From assembly GCA_001799575.1 (NCBI GenBank), contig MGTT01000020.1:1-64000 (forward strand): a DNA stretch of 64,000 nucleotides. Direction: 5' to 3'. This document shows positions 947-2,058 of this stretch, one piece after another. The notes beneath the pieces are model-generated. The model was not told where the DNA came from. It worked only from the letters and a program-made list of their open reading frames with translations, and did not search any database. Position 1 is the first letter of the stretch, and every line of letters starts with the position of its first letter. The DNA comes from Elusimicrobia bacterium GWA2_56_46 (GTDB lineage: Bacteria > Elusimicrobiota > Elusimicrobia > Elusimicrobiales > UBA9959). The translations under genes and the position numbers were made by a program.

Positions 947-975
947 AAAAAAAGCGCCAGGCCGCTTTTCTACTA
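947..975 (-). terminator. Rho-independent terminator of the downstream-reading minus-strand gene
   Basis: On the minus strand, AAAAGCG-GCCTGG-CGCTTTTTTT lies 3' of the ORF ending at 1012. Confidence 0.6.
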
Positions 976-1011
976 TGAAAAGCAGCCCGGCACCTATCTT
1001 TGTTTGGAACT

Positions 1012-1692: not shown

Positions 1693-1759
1693 AAACTCCT
1701 CCTGTTCCTATAGTTGCATCCACCCCTAAACCACCGGGAGCGAATATCAGCTCAAACAA

Positions 1760-1788
1760 AGTATACCCCCCCCCCCGCGTTTTGTCAA
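1760..1788 (-). promoter_or_regulatory. Sigma70-type promoter with G11 homopolymer in the spacer
   Basis: On the minus strand: TTGACA (1788-1783), AAACGC plus G11 (17 nt), TATACT (1765-1760). Confidence 0.75.
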
Positions 1789-1903: not shown

Positions 1904-2058
1904 GGGCGACCATCAAGCGCGTAAGTTTAACGCGGGGTGACACCGGGCAGCCTTTTTGATCCGGCAGGCCGCCGACGGAACGCGAAAAGGCTGCCCGGTG
2001 GCAGGCCCCCGCTTTACTATCCTGCGGTTCACTAACCCAACGCCCATTAGCCCGACGT
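1904..2058 (+). repeat. Structured repeat element, copy A
   Basis: Shares conserved blocks with copies at 38544-38700 and 36903-37060 (minus). 15-bp perfect stem ACCGGGCAGCCTTTT/AAAAGGCTGCCCGGT (1942-1956/1985-1999), conserved loop GGCAGGCCGCCGAYGGAACGC and 3' CCCATTAGCCC. Confidence 0.8.

Follow-up and report, generated by a model that had tools for sequence, protein, structure and literature searches.

A candidate multi-gene system of phase-variable poly-G spacer promoters before exported-protein genes in an Elusimicrobiota genome

A sigma-70-type promoter with eleven consecutive G residues in its -35/-10 spacer was identified in a 64,000-nt stretch of Elusimicrobiota DNA (the window). We consider it likely that this is a slippage-driven, phase-variable promoter, one of several that would together set the expression of a family of exported proteins. 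The original prediction of a single candidate phase-variable promoter has gained support from four paralogous copies with near-identical flanks and differing tract lengths, from promoters of other lengths in other species, from apparently decayed tracts at paralogs and from the restriction of such promoters to one exported-protein family, a single site excepted. These comparisons call for extending the prediction from one gene to a system of four promoters before paralogous exported proteins.

Window promoter and gene

The promoter, TTGACAAAACGCGGGGGGGGGGGTATACT, was read directly from the minus strand of the window (1788-1760), and agrees exactly with the predicted TTGACA-AAACGC-G11-TATACT with a 17-nt spacer. 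The -35 hexamer TTGACA (1783-1788) has six of six matches and the -10 hexamer TATACT (1760-1765) five of six; with 11 of 12 matches overall, the promoter ranks first among the sigma-70-type sites in the first 20 kb. The spacer is made up of a non-G part, AAACGC (1777-1782), which is the same in one paralogous copy (C30) and similar in two others (C28 and C19), and of the G run GGGGGGGGGGG (1766-1776), which lies between AAACGC and TATACT, takes up 11 of the 17 spacer bases and is the proposed slippage switch; the paralogs carry G11, G12 and G13. As in promoters of the porA type, the homopolymer is part of the spacer between recognisable -35 and -10 hexamers, is long enough to slip (at least about 8) and leaves a spacing near the optimum of 16-19 nt. 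The conserved, T-rich 5′ flank AAATTTTTTTTCGAACGGCCC (1789-1809) is a possible UP element, and transcription would, by promoter geometry only, start 7-8 nt past the -10 hexamer (1752-1753). The promoter is real and most likely functional.

A leader of about 60 nt with the ribosome binding site AGGAGG (1698-1703, minus strand) leads to the open reading frame (ORF) 1692-1012 on the same strand, which encodes 226 amino acids. An intrinsic terminator with a 19-bp stem and a T run (952-995, minus strand) begins 16 nt past the stop codon, and the region 940-1012 has a folding energy of -41.2 kcal/mol. As read from the sequence, promoter, leader, AGGAGG, ORF and terminator form a complete single-gene unit. 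A separate strong hairpin (-47.9 kcal/mol, 16-bp outer arms; 1930-2010, minus strand) sits between a flavodoxin-like ORF (2675-2058) and the G11 promoter, and is possibly the terminator of that ORF.

The promoter had been said to face a secreted or membrane protein; the ORF lies directly downstream and its product has an N-terminal signal anchor. The further suggestion that this product is a surface antigen is no more than a guess. The anchor and a PADFRDA motif are followed by an orphan C-terminal domain. The protein matches the module profile of the exported-protein family described below with E = 6.4e-23, the profile itself including the window sequence. It is the most divergent of eight aligned members, with 18-29 % identity to the others within the N-terminal module, and has all six invariant module positions (M1, L9, P29, D31, R33 and D34). 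No relative of its C-terminal 152 amino acids was found in 235 genomes of the class, and the C-terminal domain matched no Pfam family. A lipobox cysteine was not found, the N-terminal 80 residues being free of cysteine. An AlphaFold model of the protein alone had a mean pLDDT of 37.6, too low for use.

Paralogous promoters in the source genome

Pattern searches were carried out over the whole source genome (G000; Elusimicrobiota, 2.66 Mb, 98.8 % complete). Exactly four runs of at least 11 G were found, and each of them fills a TTGACA...TATACT spacer: in the window (C20; G11, 17-nt spacer), C30 (G11, 17 nt), C19 (G12, 18 nt) and C28 (G13, 19 nt). Between the window and C30, a 50-nt segment made up of the 21-nt flank and the 29-nt core is identical; the sequences diverge immediately before and after it, and 5′ leader and coding region differ. 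C19 shares 8 nt of the window flank; C28 keeps 16 nt of it yet has two extra G's. An identical core in differing surroundings suggests that the promoter was kept, or was shared by conversion, with tract length as its variable part. The exact 14-mer CGGCCCTTGACAAA occurs four times in the genome, solely at the four family promoters, and a promoter carried by a dispersed repeat was rejected for this reason.

The G11 tract is the sole G/C run longer than 7 in the window, which has 56 % G+C. By composition, 2.66 Mb should contain about 3 G runs of at least 11 if bases are independent and about 6 under a first-order model, so the tract by itself is unremarkable; its place is remarkable. The perfect pattern TTGACA-N15-19-TATAMT occurs 27 times in the genome, against 4 times for a reversed control pattern, so most of these sites are real promoters, four of them with a poly-G spacer. 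The probability that four randomly placed tracts would all fall into such spacers is about 1e-16, estimated as (27 × 17 / 5.3 Mb) to the fourth power, which counts as one or a few events and not as four because the promoter copies are related. G runs of at least 9 are scarcer than expected (17 seen, about 40-70 expected), and none of those with exactly 9 or 10 G lies within a TTGACA...TATAMT spacer. Directly 5′ of an ATG there is a G9 run (GGGGGGGGGTATGATC; G000:C17:53644-53652), possibly a ribosome-site tract able to slip.

Tract length differs between paralogs and between species; the source genome is read from one consensus assembly, in which a homopolymer count may be off by one. Strain variants were also sought: no copy was present in the viral contigs searched, and a second strain was looked for and not found.

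Exported-protein family and related genomes

All four poly-G promoters precede members of one exported-protein family, whose genes are scattered over the genome and not clustered. The constant N-terminal module, M.NWKKY.LAAVVVTAAGFAY...SHRNIP.DFRDAVADN, is made up of a signal anchor and, behind it, a conserved juxtamembrane motif (..PxDFRDA..). The C-terminal regions differ; partners of the module include FGE-sulfatase, clostripain, peptidase M23, MlaC and many orphans. In the source genome the FGE-sulfatase domain is found behind the poly-G promoters C28 and C30 and in C11, which has a decayed tract. A diversity-generating retroelement was considered on account of the FGE-sulfatase/C-lectin fold in the paralogs and was rejected, as the genome holds no reverse transcriptase: RVT_1 (PF00078) had no match in this 98.8 % complete assembly.

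Of 59 genomes in the same taxonomic family, 33 contain the N-terminal module at E ≤ 0.001; beyond that family, a single genome has it at E ≤ 1e-5. A cluster of about 17 genes with a ..SDLRDAVADN.. module was observed on one contig of another genome (G042:C34:201062-226727, 201-227 kb); their C-termini differ (MlaC, FGE-sulfatase, orphans) and their promoters are mostly not G-rich.

The strict poly-G pattern was present in 4 of 342 Elusimicrobiota genomes, all within one taxonomic family, and every site in the phylum but one lies at a member of the exported-protein family. Promoters before family members in other genomes carry G11 (G012:C146, 16-nt spacer), G10 (G054, 16 nt), G11 (G058, 18 nt) and G12C (G056, 17 nt). 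Together, the source genome and its relatives provide eight copies with tracts of 10-13 G and spacers of 16-19 nt. The exception is a second poly-G promoter in G012 (G012:C257:12211-12238; G8, 16-nt spacer), whose downstream gene encodes a right-handed beta-helix protein that is secreted and does not belong to the family.

A promoter could be recognised within 200 nt in 48 of the 97 family members examined; 8 of these 48 have a run of at least 10 G and 6 more have 6-9 G. A pure tract of at least 10 is absent from the remaining 40 of 48, so the switch is no family-wide necessity. Other family members have the interrupted tracts GGGGGGGGGAGGG, GGGGTGGGGGGG, GGGGAGGGTGG and GGCGGCGGGGG, which read like former homopolymers split by point changes. 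In the source genome an interrupted tract, GGGAGGGGGGC, is found at C26; this one, GGGGGGGGGAGGG and GGGGTGGGGGGG look like locked descendants of homopolymers. In close members the non-pure spacers have a mean G content of 52 %; the mean for the other 22 perfect promoters in the source genome is 25 % (Mann-Whitney, p about 1e-5 with relatedness ignored, a value that is too small because the family members are related). The C14 member has TTGACAAAACACGGG, followed by an N gap right after the spacer GGG; this 16-N assembly gap (G000:C14:6587-6660) starts inside the G-rich spacer and ends in the coding region.

Poly-G spacers in other phyla

A scan with TTGACA-N3-12-G8-TATAMT, one genome per species, returned at least 115 stretches. 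Among the matches listed, most were from gut Clostridia, Bacilli and Saccharibacteria, with Streptococcus also represented, and they stood chiefly at secreted or lipoprotein genes. The 121 poly-G promoters among these matches had spacers of 14 (4 promoters), 15 (13), 16 (19), 17 (6), 18 (31), 19 (38) and 20 nt (10); spacers of 11-13 nt, although permitted by the pattern, were absent from the matches listed. A 17-nt spacer is therefore rare among them (6 of 121), whereas 17 nt is the commonest spacing of the non-G promoters in these loci. This dip is absent from the small Elusimicrobiota set.

By a crude hydrophobicity measure applied to ORFs of at least 150 amino acids, a strongly hydrophobic N-terminus was found, among the matches listed, in 64 of 85 downstream ORFs and in 126 of 577 other ORFs (odds ratio 11; the comparison ORFs include spurious ones), which makes exported proteins behind poly-G spacers a recurrent bacterial theme. 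It is possible, as a tentative proposal, that the window site belongs to a bacteria-wide, largely undescribed class of poly-G-spacer switches at exported-protein genes of uncultured lineages (Elusimicrobiota, gut Clostridia, Bacilli, Saccharibacteria), in which G-tract geometry or a prevailing OFF state would shift the usual spacer off 17 nt and which in Elusimicrobiota would run a combinatorial, modular exported-protein family.

Mechanism and alternative explanations

In the proposed mechanism, the number of G's in the spacer tract would determine how strong this sigma-70-type promoter is. Slipped-strand mispairing at replication would add or remove G's and move the spacer within about 16-19 nt, and transcription of the monocistronic gene 1692-1012 would go up or down heritably and reversibly. 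With the same module before the three paralogs C19, C28 and C30, and with tracts that slip independently, four promoters would allow up to 16 on/off combinations; the population would be a mixture of cells with different subsets of exported proteins that share an anchor and differ in their C-termini. The window promoter and C30 (17 nt) are predicted to be strong, C19 intermediate and C28 weak. This prediction assumes the usual 17-nt optimum, an assumption made somewhat doubtful by the scarcity of 17-nt spacers in other phyla. Slippage within the population, its effect on transcription, export and a benefit are what we infer; the paralog differences could stem from slow divergence rather than fast switching.

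The best-surviving alternative, which we regard as improbable, is an ordinary fixed promoter whose G-rich spacer was inherited and has no role in switching, the length differences being neutral drift of an unstable tract. It accords with the passage of the G-rich spacer through the family by descent, and with paralogs that have interrupted or non-G spacers, keep good -35 and -10 hexamers and presumably work. Long pure tracts should, however, erode under this explanation; runs of at least 9 G are indeed scarce, yet the four longest are all at these promoters, and the layout recurs in other species, as it does at exported proteins of other phyla, where it seems to have arisen independently.

Less probable still is a tuning of the promoter in which slippage plays no part and the G tract acts as a structural or binding element (G-quadruplex, A-form-like DNA or regulator site). 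Runs of G have an unusual helical geometry, and the scarcity of 17-nt spacers in other phyla (6, against 19, 31 and 38 of 16, 18 and 19 nt among the matches listed) would suit such an element; the lack of that dip in the small Elusimicrobiota set speaks against it. A binding site would also tend to hold its length, whereas near-identical copies differ by one or two bases, as slippage predicts. An assembly or sequencing artefact, with the true tract shorter, longer or collapsed between paralogs, is scarcely credible: the C14 gap begins in a tract and contig ends are close to two of the copies, but four copies with unique flanks, and those of other species, have tracts of 10-13 each, so that only the exact count could err.

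Comparison with known systems

The appeal of the original prediction to homopolymeric spacer promoters established in Neisseria is backed by the porA case of Neisseria meningitidis, in which, according to PMC3899988, citing van der Ende 1995, one G more or less in the spacer changes transcription. Like the window promoter, porA has its poly-G tract inside the -35/-10 spacer. It is a single porin gene of a pathogen in which switching was measured; here the genes form a paralog family, encode unrelated proteins and are candidates for switching.

The Vlp system has several paralogs with their own homopolymer promoters, a conserved N-terminus, divergent C-termini and combinatorial expression; its tract is poly-A and its products are repeat-containing lipoproteins from clustered genes. 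The likeness lies in the four paralogs of the source genome, each under its own homopolymer promoter, and in the constant export module with divergent C-termini; the differences are poly-G, scattered genes and a window protein without a lipobox cysteine. The Vlp system of Mycoplasma hyorhinis is named in PMC3899988 and PMC11868660. Because of the missing lipobox, the different base and the scattered genes, the Elusimicrobiota system was not filed as a Vlp system; it appears to combine a porA-like mechanism with a Vlp-like layout.

In Bordetella fim promoters the activator site and the -10 hexamer flank the tract, whereas the window tract occupies the spacer that follows a perfect -35 hexamer. 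As at the window promoter, a homopolymer tract lies in a promoter for an exported product: PMC3899988 cites fim as a case in which exported structures have a promoter with a C/G homopolymer whose length controls transcription. Cutibacterium (Propionibacterium) acnes has intergenic G/C tracts; for at least one of these, a position within a promoter spacer has been inferred and an association with an expression difference is described (PMC4746626). That location is shared with the window promoter; C. acnes differs in phylum and in that varied genes are concerned, and its tract lengths follow clades, which indicates slow change (PMC4746626).

Conclusions

In a full-text literature search, four papers mentioned both Elusimicrobiota and phase variation, and none of them joined the two in title or abstract. 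The promoters described here would be a known kind of switch in a phylum for which no report was found in the literature searched. Tract lengths at the four loci can be counted directly, without culture, in existing metagenome reads, so switching is testable from such reads. If switching is true, there would be a contingency-locus system in the little-studied phylum Elusimicrobiota: a multi-gene bet-hedging family of uncultured bacteria, with a common promoter module and interchangeable exported domains.
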